From Bifidobacterium phasiani (GTDB lineage: Bacteria > Actinomycetota > Actinomycetes > Actinomycetales > Bifidobacteriaceae), in contig NZ_JAHBBD010000003.1 in assembly GCF_019331775.1 (NCBI RefSeq), positions 1-64,000 on the forward strand: DNA of 64,000 nt, in the 5' to 3' direction. The number at the start of each line of letters is the position of its first letter. The stretch's first letter is position 1. The position numbers and the translations under genes were made by a program. The notes beneath the pieces were generated by a model. That model worked only from the letters and a program-made list of their open reading frames with translations, searched no databases and had not been told where the DNA came from. Shown piece after piece: positions 46,596 through 63,448 of the stretch.

Positions 46596-47312
46596 ATGCG
46601 TCCCATACGGATCGGTGTGGTCGAGGACGACCCCGCCAGCTGCCAGCTCGTCGTGGACTACCTCAACCGCTACCAGAGCGAGCACGGCGAGGAGTTCGTC
46701 GTATCCGTCTTCGACGACGGCGCGACGCTGGTGGACCACTACGCCCCGATCTACGACATCCTGCTGCTCGACATCGAGATGAAGCGGATGGACGGCATGG
46801 AGGCCGCCCGCCGCGTGCGCGAGCGCGACGACAGCGTCGTCATCGTGTTCATCACCGCGGCGCCGCAGTACGCCATCAGCGGCTACGAGGTGCGCGCGCT
46901 GTCCTATCTGCTCAAGCCCGTGCCCTGGTTCGCGTTCAGCCAGGAGATGAAGCGCTCCATCGACGCCGTCCGGCGCAACACCGACGAGTCGCTGCTCGTC
47001 GAGACCGGCTCGAAGCAGCTGCGCGTCGAGCTGGCCGAGATCGTGTACATCGAGTCGATCCGCCACACCATCGTCATCCACACGCTCGGCGGCAAGCTGT
47101 CCATCACCGGCACGCTCAAGGAATTGGAGGCGCGGCTCGCCGGGGCGGACTTCTTCCGGTCGAACTCCTGCTATCTGGTCAACCTGCGGTACGTCGTCGC
47201 GGTCGAGGACCAGGACTGCGTGCTGTCCACCGGCGAGCGGCTGCGCATCAGCCGGCCGCGCAAGAAGGCGTTCCTGGCCGCGCTGGCCGACTATATGGGC
47301 GGCAGCCGATGA
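46596..47312 (+). CDS. LytTR-family response regulator 1
   Basis: 238-residue response regulator: receiver domain with the phosphorylated D59 (LLLDIEM) and K in SYLLKP, followed by a LytTR DNA-binding domain (VYIESIRHTIVIHT, LVNLRYV). This is the AgrA/ComE/VirR type. Its stop overlaps the kinase start (ATGA), a tight two-gene operon. Targets are unknown; the adjacent GH3/GtrA genes are the obvious candidates. Confidence 0.9.
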   Translation: MRPIRIGVVEDDPASCQLVVDYLNRYQSEHGEEFVVSVFDDGATLVDHYAPIYDILLLDIEMKRMDGMEAARRVRERDDSVVIVFITAAPQYAISGYEVRALSYLLKPVPWFAFSQEMKRSIDAVRRNTDESLLVETGSKQLRVELAEIVYIESIRHTIVIHTLGGKLSITGTLKELEARLAGADFFRSNSCYLVNLRYVVAVEDQDCVLSTGERLRISRPRKKAFLAALADYMGGSR

Positions 47313-48631
47313 CCGGCACGATCATCAACGCGCTGCCGGACATCCCTCGCGTCTGCACGGCGATCTGCGAGTGGCTGGCCTGCATCGTGTACGTCGCGGT
47401 GATATACCGGCGCGTGCCGCTGCGCCGCAGCGTCGTGGTCTGCGCCGTGGGGCTGCCCGCGCTGGTGGCGGTGCAGTACTTCGCCGGCATGATGACGCTG
47501 CCGTTCTGGATCCTCGGCATGTTCCTCGCCGCCGCGGGCATGTACCTGATCATCCTGCTGGGCACCGGGGCGGGCAAGCGGGAGAGCCTGTACATCACGG
47601 CGCGCGCGTTCATCCTGGGCGAGCTGGTCGCCTCGCTGCACTGGCAGCTGGCCATGTTCGTCGAACGCACGCTCGACCGCGCCCCGAACACGCTGGAGAT
47701 CAACGCCCTGCTGGTGGCCGTATACGCGATCTGCTTCCTGGTCGCCTGGCGCGTGGAGAACGGCAACTTCAGCCAAAGCGAGCCGACGCTGCCGACGGTC
47801 TCCACGACCGTGATGACCGTGGCGACCACGCTGATCACCTTCGCGATGAGCAATCTGAGTTTCGTCTCGACGAACACGCCGTTCTCCGGCACGGTCGGCC
47901 AGGAGGTGTTCTACATCCGCACGCTGGTGGACTTCTGCGGCTTCGCGATCCTGTTCGCGCAGCAGGAGCAGACGCGACGCATCGCCTCGAACCTGGAGCT
48001 CGCCTCGATCAACGCGCAGCTGAAAAGCCAGCACCAGGAGTACCTGCAGTCGAAGGAGAACCTGGAGTCGATCGGCCGTCTGGCGCACGACCTCAAGCAC
48101 CAGATCGCGGCGCTGCGCGCGGAGGTGGACCCCGGGCACGTCGCCAAGGGCTTCGAGCAGCTGGAGGCCTCGGTGCAACGCTACAGCACCCAGCAGCACT
48201 CCGGCAACCCGGTGCTCGACGTCATCCTGACCACGAAGACCCGCACGTGCGCGGACCACGGCATCACGTTCACCGCGGTGGCGGACGGCAAGCTGCTGGC
48301 CGGCATGTCATCGATGGACATCGCCTCGCTGTTCGGCAACGCGATCGACAACGCGATCGAGGCGACGTCGAAGCTGCAGGACCCCCAGCAGCGGCTCATC
48401 CGCCTCGCGCTGTACGGGCAGGGGCAGTTCATCGTGATCCGCGTGGAGAACTACTACGACTCCACGCTGCGCACCGACGCCGAGGGCAACCTGCGCACCA
48501 CCAAGCGCGACGCCCGGTCGCACGGCTTCGGCGTCAAGTCGATCCGCCACATCGCCCAGCAGTACGACGGCGAGGTCACCATCCGCACCGACGACCACTG
48601 GTTCACCCTCACCGTCCTCATCCCCCGCTGA
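47309..48631 (+). CDS. AgrC-like GHKL sensor histidine kinase 1
   Basis: 440-residue membrane sensor with about six N-terminal helices (first ~215 residues), a coiled linker, the phospho-acceptor segment LAHDLKHQI near residue 260 and a GHKL ATPase domain (NAIDNAIEA as N box, GFGVKSI as G box). It resembles peptide-sensing AgrC/FsrC kinases, but no AgrB/AgrD-like gene or peptide precursor is seen nearby. It is coupled to response regulator 1. Confidence 0.88.
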   Translation: MTGTIINALPDIPRVCTAICEWLACIVYVAVIYRRVPLRRSVVVCAVGLPALVAVQYFAGMMTLPFWILGMFLAAAGMYLIILLGTGAGKRESLYITARAFILGELVASLHWQLAMFVERTLDRAPNTLEINALLVAVYAICFLVAWRVENGNFSQSEPTLPTVSTTVMTVATTLITFAMSNLSFVSTNTPFSGTVGQEVFYIRTLVDFCGFAILFAQQEQTRRIASNLELASINAQLKSQHQEYLQSKENLESIGRLAHDLKHQIAALRAEVDPGHVAKGFEQLEASVQRYSTQQHSGNPVLDVILTTKTRTCADHGITFTAVADGKLLAGMSSMDIASLFGNAIDNAIEATSKLQDPQQRLIRLALYGQGQFIVIRVENYYDSTLRTDAEGNLRTTKRDARSHGFGVKSIRHIAQQYDGEVTIRTDDHWFTLTVLIPR

Positions 48632-48840
48632 CCGCGGGCCGGGCAGTGGGGCCGATGCGCGGAACCGGACCGTACGCCGTCCGCACGCGCCGTCATGCAT
48701 CATCGGCATGCCGCCTCCGCCGGGTCGCCGGAACGAACCCGCCGTCGGCACCCTCCCACGCCCGGATCGGGCGCCTCCCGTCCGCCCCCCATAACCGCCC
48801 GCTCCCGCCCGCCGCCGCAAACCGCCCGCGGACAACGGCG

Positions 48841-48875
48841 AAGGCCGCGCGCCCGAACTGCGGACGCGCGGCCTT
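48841..48875. terminator. Convergent terminator between kinase 1 and gtrA
   Basis: AAGGCCGCGCG / CGCGCGGCCTT stem with a loop, 41 nt beyond the gtrA stop (minus strand). It could serve both directions. Confidence 0.55.
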
Positions 48876-48915
48876 CCTGTGTTCCTCTCTTGGGTTCGGG
48901 GCGACCCCGAACGGC

Positions 48916-49554
48916 TCAGTCCTCCTTCTTCGCCTCGCCCTCCGGGAAGATGATCTTGAAAACGAAGAAGAAGATGATCATCGAGACGCCGCCGGTGATG
49001 AACGTCACGAGGATGTTGTAGACGGCCACCGGCACGTAGGCCTGCGCGATCGGCATCCACAGGTTGTTGAAGCCGTTGCAGATCAGCGAGATCAGCACCC
49101 AGGCGATGAAGTACCACATGGCCTGGTAGACCGGGTTGCCGTGGCTCTTGAACGTGATGTTGCGCTGCAGCGGGAAGTTGATGCACTGCGCGATGAACGA
49201 GCCGACCTCGTAGCTGATGAAATAGCCCAGGCCGCCGCCGATGGCGACCGCGCCGGCCGAATCATAGACCACGTTGTAGCCGAGCAGGCTCCAGGTGAAG
49301 TCCACGCCGAACAGGCTCATGTGCACCTGCGGCCACATGAACTCGGTGCCGGCCAGGCCGGTGCCGAGAATGTACGGCATGATCGTGAAGATCAGGTACT
49401 GGACGATGGTCACGCCCATGCTGAACACGAAGAAGTAGAAGATCTGGTAGACCCACTTGGCGAGCTTGGCGTGCTCGGACTCGAACTTCTCCCACTTCGG
49501 CATCCACCACGCCATGAAGGCGTTGGAATACTTCTTCTCCGTCGTCTCACTCAT
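48916..49554 (-). CDS. GtrA-like membrane protein
   Basis: 212-residue protein with four hydrophobic segments of the GtrA family (PF04138), normally linked to movement of lipid-linked sugars. INFPLQRNITFKSHG is the typical conserved GtrA segment. Its start overlaps the end of the GH3 gene by 8 nt, so the two are translated together. Why a lipid-sugar flippase-like protein accompanies a beta-glucosidase is unclear. Confidence 0.8.
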   Translation of the reverse strand: MSETTEKKYSNAFMAWWMPKWEKFESEHAKLAKWVYQIFYFFVFSMGVTIVQYLIFTIMPYILGTGLAGTEFMWPQVHMSLFGVDFTWSLLGYNVVYDSAGAVAIGGGLGYFISYEVGSFIAQCINFPLQRNITFKSHGNPVYQAMWYFIAWVLISLICNGFNNLWMPIAQAYVPVAVYNILVTFITGGVSMIIFFFVFKIIFPEGEAKKED

Positions 49555-51970
49555 TCTCGAGCTCCTTTTCTGTACGCTTGTTGGCGGACTGGTTGCGGAA
49601 GAATCCCGCGATGAACGAACCGATGCCCCGGAAGGTGTGGCGGTTCGCGATCTTGACGATGGCCTGGACCATCGCCGAATCGATCATGCCCTGCGTCATC
49701 TTGCTCATGGCGCGCGGAGGCATGTTGAGGATGAACAGCGTGTTCAGATCGGGCTGGCCGGTCTTCTCGCGGACCTTCGCCTCGCGCTTGGTGAGCGTCT
49801 TGGCGATGGTGCGGGCCACGAACCCGCGCGAGTCCACCCAGGAGGAGATCGGGTCGTTGACGCCGAACGTCACCGGCTTGCCGGGGGCGACGACCCAGTG
49901 GCCGAAGAGCGCGGTCATCTCGTCGTCGGTGACCTCCTTGACCTTGCCGGTCAGGTAGGAGCCGAGCGCCGGGTCGGCCGGCTTCGGGTCGACGTCGCCG
50001 GCCACGGCGAACGCGGTCCGCAGCCTGATGTCCTCGGCGTTCGCGCCGACCATCAGCGTCCACTCGCCGGACTCGATATGCCAGGCGTTGGACTCGACGT
50101 CGAAGTGACGGAAGGTGGTGCGGTCGAACTCGATGCGCACGGTCTTGGACTCGTGGGCGTCGAGCCGGACCTTGGCGAAGCCCTTGAGCTCGCGGTCCGG
50201 GCGCAGCACGCCGCCCTTCGGGCCGCGCACGTACAGCTGGGCAACCGTCGAGCCGGGCACGTCGGAGTCGTTCGTGACGGTGAACTCGACGCCGGTCTCG
50301 TCGGCCTTGAGGTCGGAGTACGAGAACGTGGAGTAGCTCAGGCCGTAGCCGAACGGGAAGCGGACCGGCACGCCGGCGGTGCAATAGTAGCGGTAGCCGA
50401 CGAACGGGCCCTCGCGGTAGATGGCGTCGCGGCCGATGGCCGGGTACCAGCCGGAGTTCGGGCAGTCCTCGTACTTCAGCGGCCAGGTCTCGGCCAGGTG
50501 GCCGCTCGGGTTCACCTTGCCGGTCAGCACGTTGACGGCGGCGGAGGCGCCGGCCTGGCCGGACAGGCCGATGTACAGGACGGCGGCGACGTCGTCGAAC
50601 CACGGCAGCTCCACCGGGGAGCCGGCGACCAGCACGATGACGACCGGCTTGCCGGTGTCCTTCAGCGCGGCGACCAGGTCGTTCTGCACCTGCGGGATGG
50701 CCATCGTGGAGCGGTCGAGGCCCTCGGACTCGCTGCGCTCGTCCAGGCCGACCACGGCGACGATGACGTCGGCGCGCCCGCCGAGCGCCACGGCCTCGTC
50801 GATCAGGCCCTGGTTCGCGGCGCCCTGGCGGTCGTAGCCCTGCGCGTAGCCGACCACGTTCACGCCCTCGGCGGCGGTCAGCTCGTCGACCAGGTTCTCC
50901 TCCTTGGTGGCGTTCACCTTCGAGGAGCCGGAGCCCTGGTAGCGGGCGGTCCTGGCCATGTCGCCGACCACGGCGACGTTCACGCCGGCGGGCAGCGGCA
51001 GGGTCGCGCCCTCGTTCTTCATCAGGACGCTGGAGCATTCGGCGACGTGGCGCGCGACCACGTGGTGCGCGGCGGCCAGGTCGTCGTTCAGCAGGTCGTC
51101 GCGGCCGACGCCCTCGACCTTGGTCAGCCGGGCGATCTTGGCGATCTCCGCGGCGCGGGCGTTGAGGTCGGCCTCCGCCAGCGTGCCGGCGGCCACCGCG
51201 CCGGTCAGCTCGCGCACCGACGTGAAGCCCGGGGTCGGCATCTCCAGCGTGCCACCGGCCTTGACGGCGTCGACGGCGGAGTTCGAACCGCCCCAGTCGG
51301 AGACGACCATGCCGTCGAAGCCCCACTCGTCGCGCAGAATCTCCTGCAGCAGGTGCTTGTTCTCATGCGCGTACACGCCGTTGATCTCGTTGTACGAGGT
51401 CATGATCGTCCACGGGTGCGCCTCGCGCACCGCGATCTCGAACGCGGTCAGGTAGATCTCGCGCATCGTGCGCTCGTCGACGACGCTGTTCGAGGCCTGG
51501 CGGCGCAGCTCCTGGCTGTTGACCGCGAAATGCTTCGGGCAGGCCGAGATGCCGTTGCTCTGGATGCCCCGGACCAGGCCGCTGGCCATGCGGCCGGCCA
51601 CCTGCGGGTCCTCCGAATAGTATTCGAAGTTGCGCCCGCACAGCGGGTTGCGCTTGATGTTCATGCCGGGACCGAGCAGCACGTTGACGCCGAGGTCGTG
51701 GGCCTCCTTGCCCAGCGCCTCGCCCATCTCCTCCGCGAGCGCCGGATCCCACGAGTTGGCGACCGTGCCCGCCGTCGGGAAGCAGGTGGCGGGCTTGGAC
51801 TGCCCCAGACCGAGATGGTCGCCTGCGCCGAGCTGGCGGCGAACGCCGTGGGGACCGTCGCTCATCACGAAGCTGGGAATGCCGGCGCGGTCGTTGCCGC
51901 GCGAATCCCATTCGGACGCGCCGGAAAGCAGGGACGCTTTCTCCAACACCGAAAGTTCTTCGAGTTCCAT
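49547..51970 (-). CDS. GH3 beta-glucosidase (conventional domain order)
   Basis: 807-residue glycosidase without a signal peptide, so presumably cytoplasmic. Order is canonical: GH3 N-terminal barrel (residues about 1-280, nucleophile D225 in GMVVSDWG, KHFAVNSQE), C-terminal sandwich (acid/base Glu in ERSESEGLDR), Fn3-like domain near 560-640, then an extra helical tail of about 120 residues. The tail is conserved-looking but of unknown role. The start has AAGGGAGA. Divergent from the membrane GH3 at 52361. Confidence 0.9.
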   Translation of the reverse strand: MELEELSVLEKASLLSGASEWDSRGNDRAGIPSFVMSDGPHGVRRQLGAGDHLGLGQSKPATCFPTAGTVANSWDPALAEEMGEALGKEAHDLGVNVLLGPGMNIKRNPLCGRNFEYYSEDPQVAGRMASGLVRGIQSNGISACPKHFAVNSQELRRQASNSVVDERTMREIYLTAFEIAVREAHPWTIMTSYNEINGVYAHENKHLLQEILRDEWGFDGMVVSDWGGSNSAVDAVKAGGTLEMPTPGFTSVRELTGAVAAGTLAEADLNARAAEIAKIARLTKVEGVGRDDLLNDDLAAAHHVVARHVAECSSVLMKNEGATLPLPAGVNVAVVGDMARTARYQGSGSSKVNATKEENLVDELTAAEGVNVVGYAQGYDRQGAANQGLIDEAVALGGRADVIVAVVGLDERSESEGLDRSTMAIPQVQNDLVAALKDTGKPVVIVLVAGSPVELPWFDDVAAVLYIGLSGQAGASAAVNVLTGKVNPSGHLAETWPLKYEDCPNSGWYPAIGRDAIYREGPFVGYRYYCTAGVPVRFPFGYGLSYSTFSYSDLKADETGVEFTVTNDSDVPGSTVAQLYVRGPKGGVLRPDRELKGFAKVRLDAHESKTVRIEFDRTTFRHFDVESNAWHIESGEWTLMVGANAEDIRLRTAFAVAGDVDPKPADPALGSYLTGKVKEVTDDEMTALFGHWVVAPGKPVTFGVNDPISSWVDSRGFVARTIAKTLTKREAKVREKTGQPDLNTLFILNMPPRAMSKMTQGMIDSAMVQAIVKIANRHTFRGIGSFIAGFFRNQSANKRTEKELENE

Positions 51971-52360
51971 GGTTCTCCCTTGCACTGTTTTCTCGAACGA
52001 ACCATATGCGCGGCATCGCGCATGATCCGCCTTCACCATTTATTCAATCAGGTTTTTCCGCGTGGGCGCGCGGGGTTACACAACCTGTCGTTTTGCTCGC
52101 ACAATCGGTCGGCGGGGGTGTGGCACGCGGCGACGCGCCGTCATCCATCGAACGAAATCGACCATGTGGGGCGATCGGGGCCGGACCGAACCGACGGACT
52201 GCTGGAATGGGTACAGCGACACGACGCGGCGTCGCCGTCTTCGCCGACCGCCGATGCCGGCCGTGCCGGTCGCATGCAAACCGCAAGGAGAGGAACGGGC
52301 GCGGCCGCCGCCATGTCGGAGGCCGGAACCGACGCCCGGGACTATCAAGGAGGAGGTCCC
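51971..52360. other. Divergent control region of the GH3 genes
   Basis: 390 bp between the conventional GH3 gene (minus) and the first permuted GH3 (plus). Contains an AT-richer piece (52015-52060). A segment GATCGGGG...ACTGCTGGAATGGG (52172-52211) resembles GTCGGGG...GCTGCTTGGAATGACG upstream of the second permuted GH3 (58942-58983). No gene seen. Confidence 0.5.
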
Positions 52361-55252
52361 ATGATCGAGATCAACTGGAGCGACGTCATCAACGTCGTCT
52401 CCTCGATCGCCCCGCAGCTGATCGCCATCGGCGTGGTGCTGGCGCTGGCGATCGTCGTAACCGTGGCCGTGAACCGGCGTACGGTCGCGGACCAGGCGAC
52501 GCGCAAGCTCGTCCACGCGCAGTCGTGGCTGGTGTTCCTGGTGGCGGCCGTAGTGGCCGTGGCGATGATGGTGTTCGGCCCGCTCGCCACGCTGCTGAAC
52601 AACGCGACCGCGGAACGCCACATGCTCTCCGACGAGACGATCGCCACGGCGAACGAGCTCGGCGCCGAGGTGCAGCGCGAGGGCATCACGCTGCTGAAGA
52701 ACGACAACGGCAGCCTGCCGCTGAGCGACACGAACGTCAACGTGTTCGGCTGGTCGTCCACCAACCCGGTGTACGGCGGCACCGGCTCCGGCTCGCTGTC
52801 CGACACGTACCCGACCGTCTCGCTGATCGACGGCCTCGAGGAGGCCGGCATCACCGTCAACGACGACCTGACCGACCTGTACACCTCGTACCGCGCCGAA
52901 CGCCCTGAAGTCGGCATGTGGGAGCAGGAGTGGACGCTGCCCGAACCGCCGGTCTCCGACTACTCCGACGAGCTGATCGCCGACGCGCAGGCGTTCTCGC
53001 AGAACGCGCTCGTCGTGTTCTCGCGCCCCGGCGGCGAGCACATCGACCTGCCGACCGACATGGGCGCCGACGGCCTGAACTACACGCAGAACTCCGGCGA
53101 CTACAACGACTACGAGTCCGGCGAGCACCTGCTGCAGCTCAGCCAGAGCGAGGAGAACCTTCTGGAGATGGTGACCTCGGACTTCGAGAACGTGACCGTG
53201 GTGTACAACGGCGCAAACACCCTGCAAATGGACTTCCTTGACGAGTTCCCGGGCGTCGACTCGGTGATCTGGTGCCCGCCGGCCGGCCAGAACGGCTTCT
53301 ACGCGCTCGGTGAGGTGCTGACCGGCGAGACCAACCCGTCCGGCAGGACCTCCGACACCTTCGTCAACGACCTGACCTCGACCCCGTGGTGGAACAACTT
53401 CGGCAGCTTCACCTACGACAACATGTCCGAATTCGCCGTCCCGGACGACGATCCGTACATGCCGGGCCAGACCCCGACGTTCGTGAACTACGTCGAGGGT
53501 ATCTACGTGGGCTACAAGTTCTACGAGACCGCGGACGACGAGGGGTTGATTGACTACGAGGCGACGGTCCGCTATCCGTTCGGCTACGGCCTGAGCTACA
53601 CCACCTTCTCGCAGGAGATGGGCGACGTGACCTACGCCGACGGCACGGTGAGCTTCGACGTGACCGTGACCAACACGGGCGACGTGGCGGGCAAGGACGT
53701 CGTCGAGGTGTACTACAACCCGCCGTACTATAACGGCGGCATCGAGAAGGCCAGCGCGAACCTGGTCGCGTTCGACAAGACCGACCTGCTGGAGCCGGGC
53801 GAGTCCCAGACCGTGACCGTCTCGTTCGACGATGACGACATGGCGTCCTACGACACGTACGGCGCGGCCGCCTGGGTGCTGGAGGCCGGCGACTACCGGA
53901 TCTCGATCAACTCCGACTCGCACAATGTGCTCGACGAGGCCACCGTGACCGTGCCGGAGACCATCACCTTCGATTCCGAGGACAACACCCACAACGGCGA
54001 CGCCGTCCCGGCCACCAACGAGTTCGCGAGCGCCGAGGGCGACATCACCTACCTGTCGCGCGCCGACGGCTTCGCCAACTATGCGGAGGCCACCGCCGCG
54101 CCGTCGACCACGCTGTCCGACGAGCTCAAGGCCACGTTCGTGAACAACGGCAACTACGATCCGGCGGACTACGACAACGCGGACGACACGATGCCGACCA
54201 CCGGCGCCGACAACGGCGTGGAGCTCTACCAGCTGTACGGCCTCGACTACGACGACCCGCAGTGGGACGACCTGCTCGACCAACTGACCGTCGACCAGAT
54301 GCGGAACCTGATCGCCATGGCCGGCTACGGCACCCAGGCCATCGACTCGATCGGCAAGGTGCAGCAGTTCGACGTGGACGGCCCGGCCGCGCTGAACAAC
54401 ACGTTCACGGGCGTCGGCTCGATCGGATTCCCGTGCAACACCGTGTTCGCCTGCACGTGGAACACCGACATCGCCCGCCAGTTCGGCGACGTGATCGGCC
54501 GGATGGGTCTCGACATGCAGATCACCGGCTGGTACGCCCCGTCGATGAACATCCACCGCACCGCGTTCGCCGGCCGCAACTTCGAGTACTTCTCGGAGGA
54601 CGGCTTCCTGTCCGGCGCGATGGCGGCCGAGCAGGTGGCGGGCGCCCGCGAGCACGGCATCTACGCGTTCGTCAAGCACTTTGCGCTCAACGACCAGGAG
54701 ACCAACCGCTGGGGCATGCTGTGCACGTGGTCGAGCGAGCAGGCGATCCGCGAGATCTACCTCAGGCCGTTCGAGATCGCGATCAAGGACGGCGGCGCGC
54801 AGGCCGTGATGAGCTCCTACAACTACATCGGCACGACGTACGCGGGCGCCTACGCGCCGCTGCAGCAGACCGTGCTGCGCGGCGAGTGGGGCTTCGACGG
54901 CATGGTGCTCTCCGACTACTTCGCCGGGTTCGGCTACCAGAACGCCGACCAGATGACCCGCAACGGCACCGACGCGATGCTGGCGACCATCCAGGGCACC
55001 AACTACACCACCGACGATTCGGCCACCGCCGTGATCGCGATGCGTGACGCGGCGCACAACATCCTGTACACCGCGGTGAACAGCTGGGTGTACGCGGACG
55101 GCGCGCCCGCCTCCGCGCTGCCGATCTGGCAGGTCGCCGCCTACGTGGTGATCGCCGTGGCCGCGGTCGTGTTCATCCTGCTCGAGGTGCTGGCCGTCAG
55201 GCGCTACCTGAACCGCAGGAAGGCCGCGACGGTGGCCGTCGCCGGCGAGTAG
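52361..55252 (+). CDS. Membrane-anchored, domain-permuted GH3 glycosidase 1
   Basis: 963 residues. Two N-terminal helices (about 17-38 and 54-76) separated by a basic loop, a large soluble part and one C-terminal helix (about 922-947) followed by RRYLNRRKA. Charges predict an extracytoplasmic catalytic part. Domain order is reversed: GH3 C-terminal domain (about 100-410; probable acid/base E226 in GGEH), Fn3-like (about 415-510), then the GH3 barrel (about 635-880; KHFALNDQE, nucleophile D852 in MVLSDYF). Such permutation is known from a few beta-glucosidases (Ruminococcus, Butyrivibrio), without these anchors. AGGAGGAGG precedes the ATG. Paralogue at 59036. Substrate unknown. Confidence 0.87.
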   Translation: MIEINWSDVINVVSSIAPQLIAIGVVLALAIVVTVAVNRRTVADQATRKLVHAQSWLVFLVAAVVAVAMMVFGPLATLLNNATAERHMLSDETIATANELGAEVQREGITLLKNDNGSLPLSDTNVNVFGWSSTNPVYGGTGSGSLSDTYPTVSLIDGLEEAGITVNDDLTDLYTSYRAERPEVGMWEQEWTLPEPPVSDYSDELIADAQAFSQNALVVFSRPGGEHIDLPTDMGADGLNYTQNSGDYNDYESGEHLLQLSQSEENLLEMVTSDFENVTVVYNGANTLQMDFLDEFPGVDSVIWCPPAGQNGFYALGEVLTGETNPSGRTSDTFVNDLTSTPWWNNFGSFTYDNMSEFAVPDDDPYMPGQTPTFVNYVEGIYVGYKFYETADDEGLIDYEATVRYPFGYGLSYTTFSQEMGDVTYADGTVSFDVTVTNTGDVAGKDVVEVYYNPPYYNGGIEKASANLVAFDKTDLLEPGESQTVTVSFDDDDMASYDTYGAAAWVLEAGDYRISINSDSHNVLDEATVTVPETITFDSEDNTHNGDAVPATNEFASAEGDITYLSRADGFANYAEATAAPSTTLSDELKATFVNNGNYDPADYDNADDTMPTTGADNGVELYQLYGLDYDDPQWDDLLDQLTVDQMRNLIAMAGYGTQAIDSIGKVQQFDVDGPAALNNTFTGVGSIGFPCNTVFACTWNTDIARQFGDVIGRMGLDMQITGWYAPSMNIHRTAFAGRNFEYFSEDGFLSGAMAAEQVAGAREHGIYAFVKHFALNDQETNRWGMLCTWSSEQAIREIYLRPFEIAIKDGGAQAVMSSYNYIGTTYAGAYAPLQQTVLRGEWGFDGMVLSDYFAGFGYQNADQMTRNGTDAMLATIQGTNYTTDDSATAVIAMRDAAHNILYTAVNSWVYADGAPASALPIWQVAAYVVIAVAAVVFILLEVLAVRRYLNRRKAATVAVAGE

Positions 55253-55307
55253 GCCCGGCAGCGGCATTTCGCCAAGACCGCCGGAGGCACCCGCTTCCGG
55301 CGGTCCC

Positions 55308-55348
55308 CGCCAGGGCGGCGTTCGGAGCGTTCCGGACGCCGCCCTGGC
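55308..55348 (+). terminator. Terminator of permuted GH3 gene 1
   Basis: CGCCAGGGCGGCGTT / GACGCCGCCCTGGCG, a stem of about 15 bp with an inner CGGAGCGTTCCG palindrome, 55 nt after the stop. Confidence 0.75.
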
Positions 55349-55514
55349 GTATTCCGGCGAATAATGCATGCATTCCGTGCCGTTTCCGTGGATTTTTGCT
55401 GTTTTTCGGGCCATTTTCCGTCGAATTATGTTGCTGGAACCGCGGCGTCAAGATGGAATTTTGCTATTCTAGAGGCCATCAGACGTATGTTTTTTGCTAC
55501 GAAAGCGGCACGAA

Positions 55515-56840
55515 ATGCTACAACGCAAAGCCTATCGGCAGTTGCAGGACTGGAAGACCAACAAGACGAACGAAAGCCTGCTGGTCTGTGGCGCGCGGCA
55601 GGTGGGCAAGACCACGCTGATCCGCCGGTTCGCCGCCGACAACTACGACTCGTTCGCCGAGATCAACTTTCTCGACAACCAAGCCGCGATCGAAACGGTC
55701 TCGCAGGCGCGCGACGCGGCCGACCTGCTGTTCCGCCTGACGGTCGTCGCACGTCGGCGGCTCGTCCCGGGACGATCGCTGATCTTCCTCGACGAGGTGC
55801 AGGCCTGCGGGGATCTGATCACCTGGGTGAAGTTCCTCAAGGAACAATCGTCCTATGACTTCGTGCTCTCCGGTTCCCTGCTGGGGCTCGACGCCTTCAA
55901 CGTCCGTTCGGTCCCCGTCGGGTTCCTGCAGACGCTGACCATGTATCCGCTGGACTTCGACGAGTTCTGCCTTGCCAACGGCATCCCGGCCACGGCGCTG
56001 GACAGCGTGCGGACCTCGTTCGCGGACCGCGCTCCCGTCCCCGACTTCCTGCATGCGCAGCTCGTGGACCTGTACTACCGTTACCTCCTCGTCGGCGGCA
56101 TGCCCGCCGCCGTCCAGTCCTACGTCACGCACAACGACATGCAGCAGGTGCGCGCGACCCATCGCAACCTCATCGACACCTACGAGGCCGACATCTCGCA
56201 ATATGTCGCCGACAAGGTCGAGGCGCGCCAGATCAAGACGGTGTACGAGGCCATCCCCGGACAGCTGAACTCGGAGAACAAGCGGTTCAAATACACACGA
56301 TTGAGCAAGACCGCCCGGTTCGCCAACATGGAGACCGCGTTCGACTGGCTTGCCAGCGCGGGAGTCGCGCTGCCCGTCTCCAGGGTCACCGACATCGCCT
56401 ACCCTCTTGGGCTCAGCGAGAACCGCAACCAGTTCAAGCTGTTCATGAACGACGTCGGGCTGCTCACCTCCCGGCTCATGGGCAACGCCGACCTCGACAT
56501 CCTCAACCGCAGGGACACGATCAATTTCGGCTCGATCTACGAAAACGTAGCCGCGCAGGAGCTGCTGAGCCGCGGTTTCGGACTTCATTATTACAATGCC
56601 GCCAAGGTGGGCGAGGTGGATTTCGTGGTGCAGACGCACCGGGGCGAGGTGCTGCTGTGCGAGATCAAGTCGGGCAAGGACTACAGGCGGCACAGCGCGC
56701 TCAACAACCTGATGGCCGCGTCGGAGGCGGACAACGTGAAGGCCTACGTGTTCTGCAATGGCAATGTCCAGGTCGAGGGCAACGTCACCTATCTGCCCAT
56801 CTATATGCTTGGATGCCTGTCGCCGGACGGCTTACTATGA
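55515..56840 (+). CDS. AAA ATPase with DUF4143 domain
   Basis: 441-residue protein: AAA_14-type ATPase (Walker A GARQVGKTT near residue 28, Walker B SLIFLDEVQ) and a C-terminal DUF4143 domain with a PD-(D/E)XK-like strand (GEVDFVVQTHRGEVLLCEIKSGK). The ATG at 55515 is taken; an in-frame TTG lies 21 nt earlier. The AT-rich leader (55380-55510) differs from neighbours. Family function is unclear, although members are common on variable loci. It sits alone between the GH3 gene and the second two-component system; its stop lies 15 nt before response regulator 2, so co-transcription is possible. Confidence 0.82.
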   Translation: MLQRKAYRQLQDWKTNKTNESLLVCGARQVGKTTLIRRFAADNYDSFAEINFLDNQAAIETVSQARDAADLLFRLTVVARRRLVPGRSLIFLDEVQACGDLITWVKFLKEQSSYDFVLSGSLLGLDAFNVRSVPVGFLQTLTMYPLDFDEFCLANGIPATALDSVRTSFADRAPVPDFLHAQLVDLYYRYLLVGGMPAAVQSYVTHNDMQQVRATHRNLIDTYEADISQYVADKVEARQIKTVYEAIPGQLNSENKRFKYTRLSKTARFANMETAFDWLASAGVALPVSRVTDIAYPLGLSENRNQFKLFMNDVGLLTSRLMGNADLDILNRRDTINFGSIYENVAAQELLSRGFGLHYYNAAKVGEVDFVVQTHRGEVLLCEIKSGKDYRRHSALNNLMAASEADNVKAYVFCNGNVQVEGNVTYLPIYMLGCLSPDGLL

Positions 56841-56855
56841 GGGCGGGAGGCACGC

Positions 56856-57557
56856 ATGATGAACATCGCCGTCGTCGACGATGACGACCGGGACGCCGCC
56901 GTCACCATCGAGCTGATCGACCGGTATTACGCCGGCGACGAGACCCGGTATGCCGTCACCCGGTACGGCGATGGCGGCACGTTTCTGGAGGGTTACCGCG
57001 CCGACTTCGATCTGGTGGTCCTCGATGTGGAAATGCCCGGCCTCGACGGCCTGGAGACCGCCCGTCGGCTGCGTGAGATCGACGGGAACGTCGTGCTGGT
57101 GTTCACCACGAAGATGGCGCAGTACGCGGCCGCCGGCTACGACGTGGACGCCATCGGCTACCTGCTCAAGCCGCTGGAGTACTTCAACCTGGCGCTGAAG
57201 ATGCGCAAGGCCGAGGAGCTCGTGCGATCGCGCCGCGGCGTGACCATCCCGCTGTCCGTCGACGGCGGGATGCGGTTTCTGTCCTCGCACGACGTCCGTT
57301 ACGTCGAGGTGTTCAGACACGACCTCGTCTACCACACGGGCGACGGCCCGTGGAGGGTTCGCGGCAGCCTCAAGGAGGCCGCCCGACTGCTCGAACCTGC
57401 CGATTTCGTCGCCTGCAGCCGTTTCTGCCTGGTGAATCTGGAATGGGTTCGGGCCGTGACCGACAACGACGTACGCGTCGACACGTTCACCCTGCCCGTC
57501 AGCCGTTCGAAGAAGAAGGCGCTGATGCAGGCGTTGGCGCGCTATTACGGGAGATGA
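56856..57557 (+). CDS. LytTR-family response regulator 2
   Basis: 233-residue AgrA-type regulator: receiver with D57 (VVLDVEM) and IGYLLKP, then LytTR domain (VRYVEVFRHDLVYHT, CLVNLEWV, SRSKKKALM). GGGAGG precedes the start. Stop overlaps kinase 2 start (ATGA). The direct repeat at 58873-58906, beyond kinase 2, is a candidate binding site. Confidence 0.9.
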   Translation: MMNIAVVDDDDRDAAVTIELIDRYYAGDETRYAVTRYGDGGTFLEGYRADFDLVVLDVEMPGLDGLETARRLREIDGNVVLVFTTKMAQYAAAGYDVDAIGYLLKPLEYFNLALKMRKAEELVRSRRGVTIPLSVDGGMRFLSSHDVRYVEVFRHDLVYHTGDGPWRVRGSLKEAARLLEPADFVACSRFCLVNLEWVRAVTDNDVRVDTFTLPVSRSKKKALMQALARYYGR

Positions 57558-58861
57558 CCGCCATGCCGAGTTTCATTCTGTTTCCGCTCACCTTCGTCTG
57601 CGGGACGCTGGTGTTCTGCCTGCACGTCGAGTGGCGACGCTCGTGGCGCATTCTGGCGATCCCTGCATTCGTCATCGTCTGCGGACTGATCTACGACCCG
57701 CTCACCATATGGGCCGACAGCGTCGAGAACGTCTCCAGCCTGCTGGTGCGGGCGTTGTACTACATCTGCTGTTCGGTGATGTTCGTCGCGATCCTGCGCT
57801 GCTGCACCAGACTGACATGGTTGGAGTCGCTGGTGACCGTGGTGGCCGGATACGCGGTCCAGCATCTTGCCGTCGATGTGTACGCGCTGATCGACGACAC
57901 CGGCTGGGCGCAACGCAACCCGGACGGGCCGCTTGAGCGGTTCATGACGAAATTCCTCGGGGTGTTCATCATCGTGTATGCGCTGACCTACGCGTGCATC
58001 GGACGACGGCGCGTGGTCGACGACGGCAAGATCAGAAACCGACTCGTCTGGGTTCTCGTGTGCGCCGGCATTCTGCTGTTCGTCATCACGTTCAGCATGC
58101 TGGTCGTCGAGGACCGTTCCCTGGAAACGCGTCTCGTCGGACACATCTACGATGCGATCTGCGTGGCGCTGATGTTGGCCGTGCTGATGCTGGTCGCCGC
58201 CAACGACCGGCTGTACGGCGATCTGGCGGCGTTGCGGCAGACCGAGCAGCTGGCCCGCCAGCACTATGAGATCGCCCGCGAGAACATCGATCTGATCAAC
58301 ATCCGCTGCCATGACATCCGCAAATCCATCTCCCGGATGGCGGACAACCGCGCCGACACGACGACCGGGGACCTGCTGCGCCAGGTCGAGGGCAACATCC
58401 GCATCTACGACTCGATCTTCCACACGGGCAACGAATACCTGGACGTGCTGCTGACGGAGAAAGGGCTGTACTGCTCCGGCAACGCCATCACCTTCACATG
58501 CGTCGCGGACGGCCGCAGGCTTGGATTCATGGACGACACCGACGTGTTCGAGCTGTTCTCCAACATTCTCGACAACGCCATCGAAAGCGCCGCTCGGATG
58601 CAGGAACCCGGCAAACGCGTCGTGAACCTCGGCGTCGAGGCCAACGGCGGGCTGCTGGTCATCCGATCGGAGAACTACTACCCGGACACGGACGTCCCGA
58701 AATTCAGCGACGGCATGCCGGTCACCACGAAGACCGACCACCGCCAGCACGGGTTCGGCACGCGATCCATCGCATGGCAGGCCAGGAAATACAACGGCGA
58801 AGCCTCGTTCCAGGCCTCGGACGGCGTGTACACGGTAACGGTGGTGGTGCCGATTCCCTAA
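57554..58861 (+). CDS. AgrC-like GHKL sensor histidine kinase 2
   Basis: 435-residue membrane kinase with about six N-terminal helices, the acceptor segment RCHDIRKSI near residue 252 and a GHKL domain (NILDNAIES; GFGTRSI). Clearly related in layout to kinase 1, but the acceptor motif differs (HDIRK versus HDLKHQ). Coupled to response regulator 2. It is followed within 174 bp by permuted GH3 gene 2, without a clear terminator between. Confidence 0.88.
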   Translation: MTAMPSFILFPLTFVCGTLVFCLHVEWRRSWRILAIPAFVIVCGLIYDPLTIWADSVENVSSLLVRALYYICCSVMFVAILRCCTRLTWLESLVTVVAGYAVQHLAVDVYALIDDTGWAQRNPDGPLERFMTKFLGVFIIVYALTYACIGRRRVVDDGKIRNRLVWVLVCAGILLFVITFSMLVVEDRSLETRLVGHIYDAICVALMLAVLMLVAANDRLYGDLAALRQTEQLARQHYEIARENIDLINIRCHDIRKSISRMADNRADTTTGDLLRQVEGNIRIYDSIFHTGNEYLDVLLTEKGLYCSGNAITFTCVADGRRLGFMDDTDVFELFSNILDNAIESAARMQEPGKRVVNLGVEANGGLLVIRSENYYPDTDVPKFSDGMPVTTKTDHRQHGFGTRSIAWQARKYNGEASFQASDGVYTVTVVVPIP

Positions 58862-58872
58862 CGCCGCGCAGT

Positions 58873-58906
58873 GACCTCTCGTGCCGCCACGGCGACCGCT
58901 CGTGCC
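58873..58906 (+). promoter_or_regulatory. Candidate LytTR binding site (21-bp-period direct repeat)
   Basis: GACCTCTCGTGCC (58873-58885) and GACCGCTCGTGCC (58894-58906) are direct repeats starting 21 bp apart, two helical turns. LytTR regulators such as AgrA typically bind two direct half-sites with a similar period. It lies between kinase 2 and permuted GH3 gene 2, about 130 bp before that gene. The sequence differs from the AgrA consensus, so the link rests on spacing and context. Confidence 0.5.
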
Positions 58907-59035
58907 AACGACGACGTGTGTGACCGCCGGGTCCCCGTATGGTCGGGGTGCAGGTTCGGCAAGGCGGCTGCTTGGAATGACGTTGTTCCCTGCGGGCGTC
59001 GACGCCGAAACACCAACGAGAGTTAGGAGATAGGC

Positions 59036-61939
59036 ATGCTGGATATCAACATGTCCGACGTCCTCACCGTGCTCGGCTCGATCGCCCCGTATCTGGCGGC
59101 CATCGGTGTGGTGCTGGTGCTGGCGCTGATTGTGACATTCGCGGTGAACCGCAGGACCATCAAAGATGCCGCGGCCCGCAAACTCATTCATTCCGAATCG
59201 TGGCTCGTCTTTCTCGTCGCCGCCGTCGTGGCCGTGGCGATGATGCTGTTCGGCCCGCTCGCCACACTGCTGAACAACGCGACGGCGGACCGCCACATGC
59301 TCACCGACGACACCGTGGCCGCAGCCAACGAACTCGCCGAGGAGGTGCAGTCCGAGGCCGTCACGATGCTGAAAAACAACGACGGCAACCTGCCGCTCAA
59401 GGACACCAAGGTCAACGTGTTCGGCTGGGGTTCGACCAACCCGGTCTACGGCGGCACAGGCTCCGGCTCTATGTCCGCGCAGTATCCGACCGTGTCGCTG
59501 CTCGACGGCATGGCGCAGGCCGGTCTGGAAACCAACGAGGAGCTGTCCAAGCTGTACACCGACTACCGCGAGGACCGCCCCGAAGTCGGCATGTTCGCCG
59601 TCGACTGGACGCTGCCGGAGGTTCCGGCCGCCGACTACCCGCAGTCGCTGATCGACGACGCCAAGGCGTTCTCCGATGAGGCCGTCATCGTGATCACCCG
59701 CGTCGGCGGCGAAGGCGCCGACCTGCCGACCAACATGAAGGCCGAAGGCATCACCTACAACGACAACTCCACCGAATACGCCGACTTCGAAGCCGGGGAG
59801 CATTTCCTGCAGCTGTCGCAGACCGAGCAGGACATGGTCGACCTGGTGACCTCGAACTTCGACAACGTCACGCTGATCTACAACGGCGCGAACGCCTTCC
59901 AGTTCGATTTCCTGAACGACTACCCGCAGATCAAGTCGGTGCTGTGGTGCCCGCCGGCCGGCCAGACCGGATTCGCCGCGCTGGGCGACATCCTCGCCGG
60001 CACCACGAACCCGTCCGGCAAGACCTCGGACACCTTCGTGTACGACCTGACCTCGACCCCGACCTTCAACAACTTCGGCGACTTCGCCTATGACAACGTG
60101 GACGAGTTCACCATCACCAGCACGTTCGGCGGCGTCAGCTCCGATGTTTCACCGCATTTCGTGAACTACGTGGAGGGCATCTACGTGGGCTACAAGTTCT
60201 ACGAGACCGCGGACGACGAGGGGCTGATCGACTATGACGCGACCGTGCAGTACCCGTTCGGCTACGGCCTGTCCTACACGACCTTCGACCAGGAGATGGG
60301 CGACGTGACCTACGCGGACGGCACCGTGAGCTTCGACGTGACCGTGACGAACACGGGCGACGTGGCGGGCAAGGACGTCGTCGAGGTCTATTACAACCCG
60401 CCGTATACCAACGGCGGCATCGAGAAGGCGTCCGCGAACTTGGTCGCGTTCGACAAGACGGACCTGCTGGAGCCGGGCGAGTCGCAGACCGTGACCATCG
60501 AGTTCGAGGACGACGACATGGCGTCCTACGACTACGAGGACGCGCAGGCGTGGGTGCTGGAGGCCGGCGACTACCAGGTCTCGATCAACGCCGACTCGCA
60601 TACCGAAATCGCCTCGGCCACCGTGACCGTGCCCGAGACCATCACCTACGACACCGAGGACAACACGCACAACGGCGACCGGATCGTGGCCACGAACGTG
60701 TTCGACGACGCCAACGGCGGCCTGACCTACCTGTCTCGCGCCGACGGCTTCGCGAACTACGAGGAGGCCACCGCGGCCCCCGCCTCGATGTCGATGAGCG
60801 ACGAGGCCAAGACCGAGTTCATCAACAACGGCAACTACGACCCCACCGCGCACAACGACGACTCGGACGAGATGCCGACCACCGGCGCCGACAACGGCGT
60901 CCGCCTGGCCGACCTGACCGGCAAGGACTACGACGACCCGCTGTGGGACGACCTGCTCGACGAGCTGACCGTCGAGGACATGGACAACCTGATCGCCAAC
61001 GGCGGTTTCGGCAACGCGGCCGTCGATTCGATCGGCAAGGTCCAGCTCACCGACGCCGACGGTCCGGCCGCACTGAACAACAACTTCACCGGCGTCGGCT
61101 CGATCGGCTTCCCGAGCTCGACCGCGTTCGCCTGCACGTGGAACGTCGACCTCGCCCGCGCGTTCGGCGACATGATCGGCCAGATGGCGCATGACATGTA
61201 CATCACCGGCTGGTATGCCCCGGCGGTGAACATCCATCGCTCGGCGTTCGCCGGCCGCAACTTCGAGTACTTCTCCGAGGACGCCACGCTCTCCGCGAGA
61301 ATGGTCGCCGAAGAGGTCGCCGGCGCCCAGGACAGCGGCGTGTACGCCTTCGTCAAGCACTTCGCCCTGAACGACCAGGAGACGAACCGCAACAACATGC
61401 TGTGCACCTGGTCGAACGAGCAGGCGATCCGCGAGATCTACCTCAGGCCCTTCGAGTCCGCCGTCAAGGACGGCGGAGCCACCGCGATGATGAGCGGCTT
61501 CGATTACATCGGGCCGGTCTACGCCGGCGCCGACCCGAGCCTGCTCACCAACGTGCTCCGCGGCGAATGGGGCTTCGACGGCATGGTCGTCACCGACTAC
61601 TTCGGCTGCTTTGAAACCTTCCAAAACGCCGATCAGATCATCCGAGCCGGAGGCAACATCATGCTGGCCACGCTGGACGTGACCAACCATGTCTCCGACA
61701 CGGCCTCCGCCACCTCGGTGACGGCAATGAGGGAAGCCGTGCACGGCATCCTGTACTCCACCGCCAACAGCTGGCTGTACGCGGACGGCGAGCCGGACAG
61801 CAGCGCGCCGATCTGGCAGACCATCACCTATGTGGTGATCGGCCTGGCCGCAGTCGTGTTCGTCGTGCTCGAGACACTGGCCATCAAGCGCTACCTCGAC
61901 CGCAGGAAGGCCGCCAAAGTGACCGTCAGCGGCAAGTAG
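59036..61939 (+). CDS. Membrane-anchored, domain-permuted GH3 glycosidase 2
   Basis: 967-residue paralogue of the protein at 52361, with the same layout: two N-terminal helices, GH3 C-terminal domain (probable acid/base E226 in GGEG), Fn3-like domain, GH3 barrel (KHFALNDQE; nucleophile D854 in MVVTDYF), C-terminal helix and KRYLDRRKAAK tail. The middle regions are nearly identical in places (for example VSFDVTVTNTGDVAGKDVVE), suggesting recent duplication or gene conversion, while other parts differ. AGGAGA precedes the ATG. It follows the second two-component system and may be its target. Confidence 0.87.
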   Translation: MLDINMSDVLTVLGSIAPYLAAIGVVLVLALIVTFAVNRRTIKDAAARKLIHSESWLVFLVAAVVAVAMMLFGPLATLLNNATADRHMLTDDTVAAANELAEEVQSEAVTMLKNNDGNLPLKDTKVNVFGWGSTNPVYGGTGSGSMSAQYPTVSLLDGMAQAGLETNEELSKLYTDYREDRPEVGMFAVDWTLPEVPAADYPQSLIDDAKAFSDEAVIVITRVGGEGADLPTNMKAEGITYNDNSTEYADFEAGEHFLQLSQTEQDMVDLVTSNFDNVTLIYNGANAFQFDFLNDYPQIKSVLWCPPAGQTGFAALGDILAGTTNPSGKTSDTFVYDLTSTPTFNNFGDFAYDNVDEFTITSTFGGVSSDVSPHFVNYVEGIYVGYKFYETADDEGLIDYDATVQYPFGYGLSYTTFDQEMGDVTYADGTVSFDVTVTNTGDVAGKDVVEVYYNPPYTNGGIEKASANLVAFDKTDLLEPGESQTVTIEFEDDDMASYDYEDAQAWVLEAGDYQVSINADSHTEIASATVTVPETITYDTEDNTHNGDRIVATNVFDDANGGLTYLSRADGFANYEEATAAPASMSMSDEAKTEFINNGNYDPTAHNDDSDEMPTTGADNGVRLADLTGKDYDDPLWDDLLDELTVEDMDNLIANGGFGNAAVDSIGKVQLTDADGPAALNNNFTGVGSIGFPSSTAFACTWNVDLARAFGDMIGQMAHDMYITGWYAPAVNIHRSAFAGRNFEYFSEDATLSARMVAEEVAGAQDSGVYAFVKHFALNDQETNRNNMLCTWSNEQAIREIYLRPFESAVKDGGATAMMSGFDYIGPVYAGADPSLLTNVLRGEWGFDGMVVTDYFGCFETFQNADQIIRAGGNIMLATLDVTNHVSDTASATSVTAMREAVHGILYSTANSWLYADGEPDSSAPIWQTITYVVIGLAAVVFVVLETLAIKRYLDRRKAAKVTVSGK

Positions 61940-62030
61940 CCGGCCCGGGGCGCACTGCCCAGCGCCCGCAGCCAAACCTGCACGCCCGCCAGGTACCCTT
62001 CTCCACCCGGCGAGCGTGCAACCCTCCTCA

Positions 62031-62063
62031 TGGGGTGCGCGGAGCATCGTTCCGCGCACCCCA
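62031..62063 (+). terminator. Terminator of permuted GH3 gene 2
   Basis: TGGGGTGCGCGGA / TCCGCGCACCCCA, 13-bp perfect stem, 7-nt loop, followed by TACCTTT. Just after it, CCATACCTTTATGAGTCCCG and CCATACCCTCATGTCCC begin two direct repeats 29 bp apart (62061, 62090). Confidence 0.7.
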
Positions 62064-62127
62064 TACCTTTATGAGTCCCGCGGGTCACGCCATACCCTCA
62101 TGTCCCTCGGGTCATGCGGCGCGCGGC

Positions 62128-62841
62128 TCAGCACACGAATCCGGCGAGCGCCTTCATGAACGCATGGCGCCGCCGGCGCGACACCAGCACGTGGTCGCCG
62201 CCCTGCACCAGGCAGTCGTCCCGGTCCAGCGACCGCACGTAGCGCATGTTGACCAGGTACGCCGGCGAGCATAGGAAGAATCCCATCCCCTCCAGACGCT
62301 CGCGTAGGTCCTTCAACGCGCCGACAAACTCGTAGCGCGCGCCCAGCGCGTGCACGACGATCTTGTGCTTGCGGCTCTCCAGGTACGTCACCTCGTTCAG
62401 CGGCACGCGCGCGACGTTCGCCCCCACCGGCATCGTCAGCATCGCCGAGGAGTCGCGGCGACGCTTCTGCTGGATGCACAGATCCAGCTCACGCTCCAGC
62501 GCGAAGTACGAGACCGGCTTGACCAAGTAGCCCAGCGCCCCCACCTCGTACCCGTGGATCGCCAGCTGACCCATGTTCGTGGCGAATACGATGGTCACCT
62601 CGCCGTCCAGCGCGCGCACGGCCCGGGCGGTGTCGAACCCGTCGTCGCCGCCCAGCGCCACGTCCATCACGATGAGGTCGAACTGGGTGCGGAACCCGTC
62701 GAGCAGCGACCGCCCGTCGGCGTACTCGCTGATGTCGAACGCCATCTCATGGTTCAGGGCATACCGGTCGAAGCACGCCCTCAACATACGGCGGCTCTCC
62801 GCATCGTCATCGACCAACGCCACCGACATCACATCCGACAT
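62128..62841 (-). CDS. LytTR-family response regulator 3 (orphan)
   Basis: 237-residue AgrA-type regulator: receiver with D60 (LIVMDVALGG) and LGYLVKP, then LytTR domain (VTYLESRKHKIVVHA, YLVNMRYV). The start at 62841 follows GGAAAGGA at long spacing; ATG 62829 is an alternative. Unlike regulators 1 and 2 it has no adjacent kinase, so it may be served by kinase 1 or 2. It is convergent with permuted GH3 gene 2. Confidence 0.87.
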   Translation of the reverse strand: MSDVMSVALVDDDAESRRMLRACFDRYALNHEMAFDISEYADGRSLLDGFRTQFDLIVMDVALGGDDGFDTARAVRALDGEVTIVFATNMGQLAIHGYEVGALGYLVKPVSYFALERELDLCIQQKRRRDSSAMLTMPVGANVARVPLNEVTYLESRKHKIVVHALGARYEFVGALKDLRERLEGMGFFLCSPAYLVNMRYVRSLDRDDCLVQGGDHVLVSRRRRHAFMKALAGFVC

Positions 62842-63170: not shown

Positions 63171-63196
63171 CAACCGCGGACGATGGACCTCTTCCG

Positions 63197-63310: not shown

Positions 63311-63448
63311 ACACAGGAGCCGTAGCATGACACCTCAACCCCACTCCGCCCGGGTGGCCTTGCTTGCGTGCAAACGTTATGTGTCGCATCTTCATCCGGC
63401 CAACACCTTCCACCTGTCCATACCTCCACTCGGCCGCATCCCCACCTG

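Follow-up and report, generated by a model that had tools for sequence, protein, structure and literature searches.

The window considered here, the whole stretch of DNA that was analyzed, comprises bases 1-64000 of contig C23 in a 2.71-Mb genome (labeled G000); the closest named relatives, among the best 120 of 7983 matches, are Bifidobacterium proteins, including those of B. pullorum, B. saeculare, B. lemurum, and B. eulemuris. Towards its right end stands a cluster of signaling and glycosidase genes, made up of AgrA-like response regulators (RR), GHKL membrane histidine kinases (HK), a GH3 glycosidase of ordinary domain order (GH3n) with a small GtrA-like gene beside it, and GH3 proteins whose domains are permuted (PG) (Table 1). 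A first-pass annotation of this DNA had counted three LytTR regulators, two GHKL kinases, an overlap between a GtrA-like and a GH3 gene, and two permuted GH3 proteins with helices at both ends, and that inventory is borne out. It had also bounded the cluster at 46596 and 62841. The gene content given for this interval stands, but the cluster extends beyond 62841 and includes a third permuted enzyme, PGc, just outside the window. I read the window as the ancestral bifidobacterial site, RR1-HK1-GtrA-GH3n-PGc, to which PGa, an AAA/DUF4143 gene, the group RR2-HK2-PGb, and RR3 were later added.

Table 1. Features of the cluster and of its continuation beyond the window. Positions without a contig label are those of the window.
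Feature	Position	Strand	Remarks
RR1, AgrA-like response regulator (receiver + LytTR), regulator of the ancestral locus	46596..47312	+	Domains from Pfam
HK1, GHKL (HATPase_c_5) membrane histidine kinase	47309..48631	+	4-bp overlap with RR1
GtrA-like small membrane protein	48916..49554	-	PF04138 score below Pfam cut-off
GH3n, ordinary-order GH3 glycosidase, without predicted helices	49547..52039	-	8-bp overlap with GtrA-like gene
PGa, domain-permuted GH3, predicted helices at both ends	52361..55252	+	
AAA/DUF4143 gene	55515..56840	+	
RR2, AgrA-like response regulator	56856..57557	+	Inserted RR2-HK2-PGb cassette
HK2, GHKL membrane histidine kinase	57554..58861	+	4-bp overlap with RR2
Candidate LytTR operator of PGb	58873..58906	+	13-bp direct repeat (1 mismatch), 21-bp spacing
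PGb, domain-permuted GH3, predicted helices at both ends	59036..61939	+	AlphaFold2 predicted local distance difference test (pLDDT) 89.7
RR3, AgrA-like response regulator	62128..62841	-	No adjoining kinase
PGc, third permuted GH3	G000:C23:65652-68528		At the ancestral site, just beyond the window
Candidate LytTR operator	G000:C23:68751-68780		

The company that these genes keep is not peculiar to the window. The same genome has 11 PGs, 13 LytTR genes, and 9 GHKL kinase genes, and 9 of the PGs and 9 of the LytTR genes are mutual neighbors within about 5 kb, seven of those nine regulators also adjoining a kinase. The four LytTR proteins without a PG neighbor are 21-27% identical to RR1, the remainder 34-43%. 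In a sample of 61 Bifidobacterium genomes, PG matches (E <= 1e-60) fill 97 rows from 33 genomes, with 0 to 14 in a genome, and LytTR genes occur in 51. Once eight fragments in one genome, G015, are merged into three entries and two fragments are dropped, there remain 90 PGs in 32 genomes, 75 of them within 7.5 kb of a LytTR gene where gene density leads one to expect 3.9 to 4.3. Over the 61 genomes the numbers of the two kinds of gene rise together (Pearson 0.936, Spearman 0.72), and LytTR genes farther than 10 kb from any PG number 1.16 per genome with PGs and 0.83 per genome without. Ordinary GH3 paralogs of GH3n (40-45% identical to it) served as a control, and just 2 of 38 lie near a LytTR gene (Fisher p 1.9e-17), though it tells somewhat against the comparison that the control is unmatched for the number of LytTR genes per genome. 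The figure for orthologs of GH3n is 28 of 37.

Gene order recurs as well. In 74 genus stretches (60 fetched around PGs and 14 from the window's own genome, four of the latter chosen because they have LytTR genes but no PG), the families that recur are the GH3 cluster, which includes both PG and GH3n (65 stretches), RR (53), HK (49), GtrA-like (34), and a housekeeping family (20). A ribokinase, a GH2, and two small proteins left unassigned make up the rest of those annotated, together with housekeeping genes. The common order is RR>HK> <GtrA<GH3n<PG.

The association extends beyond the genus. Outside relatives were taken as the best 80 loci, of at least 80, ranked by PG similarity alone with no use of neighbor content, and these come from Lachnospiraceae, Oscillospiraceae, Coriobacteria, other Actinomycetes, and other groups. 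An RR is present in 41, an HK in 41, and both in 39; where 7.5 kb of DNA is available on both sides of the PG (25 loci), an RR lies within that distance in 17. The neighbor clusters are those of GH3 (67 loci), HK (36), RR (25), and GtrA-like proteins (12), the remaining ones being two clusters of shadow open reading frames (ORFs) and minor clusters found in at most 9 loci each. In 15 named isolates of other groups, chosen from the 80 loci after their RR and HK content was known, 29 of 43 PGs have a LytTR gene no more than 7.5 kb away, against an expected 1.9 (a PG is here a match over more than 500 of 959 model positions, and 10 shorter matches were excluded). Three of the isolates (G065, G070, and G075) have no PG near a LytTR gene. 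Co-occurrence of kinases with permuted GH3 proteins in related genomes, one of the two points on which the first-pass annotation had staked its hypothesis, is therefore found strongly, both in the genus and outside it.

Part of this was known already. A 2010 paper on Butyrivibrio proteoclasticus (PMC2914790) noted that a secreted GH3 protein with a C-terminal helix is encoded close to each of three LytTR regulators, the same link between LytTR and a membrane GH3 as is seen here, and because of that remark on one genome the association counts as partly known. The permuted subfamily is itself known. The report, in its available part, amounts to a single sentence on a single genome and has nothing on an operator, on permutation, on a second anchor, on a GH3n-GtrA pair, or on counts across phyla. 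It is the one direct precedent found in the open-licence literature; the available parts of PMC9024363, PMC10995091, PMC8145834, and PMC8895600 hold nothing bearing directly on the link. In the same literature no paper was found that describes the operator, a core of GH3n and GtrA, anchoring at both ends, or the bifidobacterial expansion.

What sort of enzyme is it that keeps company with the regulators? PGa and PGb, 69% identical to each other, carry their Pfam domains in reversed order: Glyco_hydro_3_C, Fn3-like, then Glyco_hydro_3. A permuted GH3 of known structure, GlyA1 (PDB 5k6l-5k6o), is a broad beta-glucosidase/xylosidase, and according to the available part of the paper on it the topology is found chiefly in Firmicutes, with Actinobacteria also represented, and occurs in gut bacteria (PMC5104943). 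When the AlphaFold2 model of PGb (predicted template modeling score, pTM, 0.88) was submitted to Foldseek, GlyA1 and a beta-glucosidase of Paenibacillus barengoltzii (5wug, 5wvp) were recovered with template modeling (TM) scores of 0.65-0.80, the sole alignments of nearly full length among the best 50 rows. PG shares with these enzymes the order sandwich-FnIII-barrel, a fold match over the full length, and the residues for the nucleophile and the acid/base. The former, D854 in PGb (D709 in GlyA1), is found in 72/72 genus rows and 80/80 others, and the latter, E226 (E143), in 71/72 and 79/80, counting rows over 800 aa with PGb entered twice among the 72. By an alignment counted by hand, the letters being checked, 7 of the 9 residues of GlyA1 subsite -1 are retained in PGb; D532, R597, K630, H631, and R641 of GlyA1 are conserved as D675, R741, K774, H775, and R785. 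Gln replaces H775 in 5/72 genus rows. I take PG to be active, as an exo-glycosidase of the glucose/xylose/arabinopyranose type. Where GlyA1 has, after the nucleophile, a Trp that stacks on the glycon, the eight close PGs of the window's genome have Tyr and the three divergent PGs have Gly, Asn, or Phe, a hint, at the level of residues, of different specificities.

A simple hydropathy scan predicts helices at residues 19-37, 57-75, and 928-946 of PGa and 19-37, 57-75, and 932-950 of PGb, and at both ends in 67/72 genus rows and 69/80 others. The loop of the N-terminal hairpin and the C-terminal tail are rich in Arg and Lys, so that by the positive-inside rule the catalytic part would lie outside. 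Hydropathy, this reading of charge, and the AlphaFold2 model go together to predict an extracellular catalytic domain. It had been proposed at the outset that tethered GH3 domains process an external glycoconjugate, and the predicted placement fits that proposal, as do the retained catalytic residues. Here PG departs from GlyA1, for which no membrane anchor is described in the available part of the report (PMC5104943): it has predicted helices at both ends that would anchor it in the membrane, it is coupled to LytTR and GHKL genes, and it has Tyr for Trp after the nucleophile. Directly 3' of divergent PGs are genes for small hydrophobic proteins with no Pfam match, one of 92 aa (L025:11847-12125, overlapping the PG stop by 4 nt) and one of 151 aa (L027:8164-8619), which occur in 5 and 4 genus stretches. 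They are possible membrane partners of PG.

On the signaling side, Response_reg (PF00072) and LytTR (PF04397) score over the Pfam cut-off in RR1, RR2, and RR3, and HATPase_c_5 (PF14501) does so in both kinases (99.5 and 66.1 bits). The label AgrA/AgrC-like that the cluster had been given is right as to families, a GHKL kinase with a LytTR regulator, but not right for AgrA in the strict sense, since the cut-off of the NCBIfam AgrA equivalog NF046049 (400 bits) is missed by RR1 (28.8 bits) and RR3 (35.2 bits). RR2 is not among the best 25 of 58 matches to that model. A kinase of such a pair as a rule phosphorylates the regulator next to it, and within genomes the divergence of RR and HK is correlated (0.49, p 0.0006; 18 triads from three genomes), so phosphorylation of each regulator by its neighbor kinase is to be expected here also. 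In the same 18 triads PG and RR barely co-diverge (0.19, p 0.075). All three pairs correlate across the full set of 31 triads (PG-HK 0.53), a result to which species history can lead.

If the regulators act on the PG genes, then their sites should be sought upstream of those genes. LytTR regulators are reported to bind 9-bp direct repeats separated by 12 bp, and the module resembles AgrC/AgrA and SilB/SilA in this geometry as well as in its GHKL kinase and LytTR regulator, as far as the available part of that source goes (PMC2766830). Intergenic DNA upstream was scanned, against shuffles, for repeated 9-mers with at most one mismatch and gaps of 10 to 33. In 71 genus PG promoters a gap of 21 bp occurs in 15 (2.6 in shuffles), and every other gap in at most 6. 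It is also the top gap in 63 PG promoters of relatives, with 8 (1.6 shuffled), gap 18 being next with 6. The pooled count is 23 of 134 promoters, where shuffles average 4.95 and never exceed 9. The promoters of regulators give 6 of 61 (2.2 shuffled), not above gaps 17 and 30. Unrestricted 350-bp upstream windows of relatives had been tried and were discarded for the intergenic-only rescan, because coding sequence inflated their counts at multiples of three.

Then there is the alignment of promoters from orthologs of PGc, which leads to one operator, about RCAGRTTATG-N10-RACAGG. A fixed pattern, RCARNTTRTG-N10-RACAGRNTRK, is found in 22 places in the 61 genomes and in one place in the reversed control. 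Nineteen of the 22 lie 147-268 bp upstream of a PG match; of the other three, two are by PG remnants (in G037 and G024) and one is at a contig end (in G051). Promoters that went into the pattern account for ten of the 19 and others for nine, although five of those nine were in the set scanned when the pattern was being built, the site then going unnoticed. In the window's genome the pattern marks PGc and also PGe, an orphan on contig C12 that has no LytTR gene closer than 15.8 kb, and for this reason RR1 likely acts on both. The repeat before PGb differs from the PGc-type operator. A related site precedes PGf at G000:C54:47792, and the regulator of PGf is 54% identical to RR2. A pattern for this RR2 type, YTCGTG-N15-YTCGTG, written after both promoter sites were known, was rejected as a genome-wide marker (11 matches versus 9 in the control). 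The 9-12-9 geometry of LytTR sites is present, then, in part of the PG promoters, which makes these repeats candidate operators. The first-pass annotation's suggestion that the cluster is driven through LytTR sites is supported, at the level of sequence, by them and by an operator pattern nearly confined to PG promoters.

I propose that in this module an AgrC/AgrA-like pair controls a neighboring permuted GH3 enzyme, predicted to be anchored in the membrane at both ends. Judging from the sequences, I consider it probable that the regulator activates the PG gene by way of the paired 9-bp operator and that the enzyme trims glycosides outside the cell. The kinase would phosphorylate its neighbor LytTR regulator, and the regulator would turn the PG gene on, by activation rather than repression. 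PG would do its trimming of glycosides on the outer side of the membrane. The kinase, for its part, may sense the glycoside or the trimmed product, which is the simplest reading given that nearly every place marked by the operator is a PG gene. The cytosolic GH3n and the GtrA-like membrane protein would handle whatever reaches or crosses the membrane. In this way a loose "AgrA-like cluster" becomes a defined module with a named core, a distribution across phyla, and a concrete candidate operator, which opens to direct test the question of what Agr-like kinases sense in gut bacteria. If they do sense glycosides, then gut bacteria would have a route to detect and activate those of dietary plants without the usual transporter-linked loci.

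Several observations weigh against this proposal. With at most one mismatch, 56 of the 71 genus PG promoters have no 9-12-9 repeat, 71 of the 90 genus PGs lack the genus operator pattern, and no 9-12-9 repeat was found at RR1's own promoter nor between GH3n and PGa. In 18 GH3n promoters gap 21 occurs in 3, gaps 18 and 33 in 4 each; with an excess at these gaps too, the repeat statistic alone is not conclusive, and it counts orthologs among its promoters. Fifteen of the 90 genus PGs have no LytTR gene within 7.5 kb, some of these being at contig ends. Two residues of subsite -1 differ from those of GlyA1 (Y677 to F822, W710 to Y855). Finally, PG and HK distances are uncorrelated within genomes (-0.13, p 0.70; 18 triads), so the idea that kinase and enzyme form a co-receptor was dropped and no physical partnership is claimed. 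The hypothesis of the first pass fares accordingly: co-occurrence, candidate LytTR sites, and processing outside the cell fit it, and a tight partnership of kinase and enzyme is not supported within genomes.

It may be that nothing more is at work than the use of ordinary oligosaccharides, PG cleaving cello- or xylo-oligosaccharides outside, general transporters importing the monosaccharides, and the two-component system being merely an unusual local regulator. A relative with the breadth of GlyA1 (PMC5104943, in its available part) and the seven subsite residues that PG keeps are what one would expect of such an enzyme. There are Gram-positive polysaccharide utilization loci in Roseburia and Eubacterium rectale that, in the available part of PMC5320581, likewise join glycoside hydrolases to local regulators, one arabinoxylan locus listing a LytTR regulator and kinase. 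But the loci tabulated there have ABC, GPH, or MFS transporters. No transporter was recognized in the module core of the 74 genus stretches, in which several minor families (such as c7, in 10 stretches) lacked annotation. The annotated neighbors to the right are housekeeping genes: usually protein-kinase-like, thioredoxin-like, G5-domain, RrnaAD methyltransferase, GHMP kinase, and LytR_C genes. The methyltransferase is presumably KsgA-like and the GHMP kinase IspE-like. Four of these neighbors (c4, c5, c9, and c11) had been candidates for a LacI regulator and ABC transporter genes and were given up when Pfam gave thioredoxin-like, G5/DUF348, RrnaAD, and GHMP-kinase. The many PG paralogs, most with a regulator nearby, suggest different ligands, and I regard this explanation as possible, if unlikely.

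The pair GH3n-GtrA leads to another thought. GH3n has the usual GH3 domain order, and its nearest NCBIfam model, exo-alpha-(1->6)-L-arabinopyranosidase, scores 655 bits, below the cut-off of 1300. The first-pass annotation was correct that a gene overlaps it, but the assignment to the GtrA family is weak for the protein in the window, with 20.4 bits to PF04138 (GtrA/DPMS; cut-off 26.1). A fold search with that protein returned nothing significant, the top match being a DPMS with an E of 1.2. All 25 GtrA-like proteins in an alignment of the family (A3) match PF04138 at E <= 0.01, the best at 1.7e-8. The GtrA-like gene stands beside GH3n, co-oriented, 14 times in the genus stretches, and beside it too in the Lachnospiraceae loci L041 and L042. 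So one might imagine that the GtrA-like protein flips a lipid-linked sugar, that PG, its active site kept near the membrane by predicted anchors at both ends, removes or transfers the sugar at the envelope, and that the kinase monitors the envelope. It is odd, however, for an envelope function that PGs number from 0 to 14 within one genus, and no glycosyltransferase partner was recognized among the annotated neighbors, though no profile search was aimed at finding one. Given as well the weak GtrA assignment in the window, such remodeling of the cell's own glycans or lipid-linked sugars seems improbable.

The same pair offers an observation of its own. Over 189 aa the GtrA-like protein of the window shares 81% identity with its counterpart from Candidatus Blautia pullistercoris (L042:8172-8816), while the GH3n proteins beside the two are merely 51% identical. 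One gene of the pair has therefore likely been exchanged across phyla.

Despite the AgrC/AgrA-type families and LytTR-type candidate operators, it is very improbable that the kinases detect a secreted peptide made elsewhere and that at high density PG reshapes the cell surface or a glycosylated signal, inasmuch as AgrB (PF04647) had no match in the genome (a weak control, positive in 1/14 control genomes, below cut-off), no convincingly conserved precursor peptide emerged from sampled members of the 12 largest small-ORF clusters near modules (short peptides being easily missed), and, of the 22 places where the operator pattern occurs, 21 are at PG genes or their remnants and one is at a contig end. 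The small-ORF clusters themselves were rejected as peptide genes, the members sampled looking like fragments of known genes or antisense reads, and within the limits of that clustering the first-pass remark that no peptide gene is seen continues to hold. Unlike AgrC/AgrA and SilB/SilA, the module comes without AgrB or a peptide gene that could be found, and its likely target is a glycosidase gene.

Returning to the proposal that the pair controls an enzyme trimming outside glycosides, I think that amphiphilic plant glycosides resembling saponins or flavonoids, and acting at the membrane, are the likeliest ligands, because neither a transporter nor a peptide gene was recognized in the core. One may go further and suppose that gut bacteria of several phyla possess expandable arrays of glycoside sensors, up to 14 copies in a genome, each Agr-like kinase reading a different membrane-active plant glycoside, a saponin for example, and inducing a matching GH3, anchored at both ends, that removes the sugar at the membrane surface, with the GtrA-like protein moving the lipid-like remainder. 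This is speculative and unlikely to be right. Were it true, there would be a system for both detoxification and feeding without a sugar transporter, peptide-type signaling machinery having been turned to glycosides.

A few minor features deserve mention. The best matches of RR3 in the fetched genus loci are 36-38% identical, and regulators of Demequina and Nesterenkonia are closer (43%). Upstream of RR3, the window is rich in repeats at 63011-63586 (one unit of 137 nt is present twice and another of 19 nt four times, and there are perfect inverted repeats of 18 nt). Of six proteins submitted to PADLOC five had no match; the AAA/DUF4143 protein matches a candidate phage-defense family, PDC-S01 (E 1.9e-170), and members of its cluster or a similar one occur at or near the same site in a few other genomes. 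Lastly, some modules appear to be decaying. PG and GH3n are both fragmented at G015:C1:89339-112678, and a PG remnant with an operator match persists at G037:C1:2307257-2308614, in a genome that has no LytTR gene.

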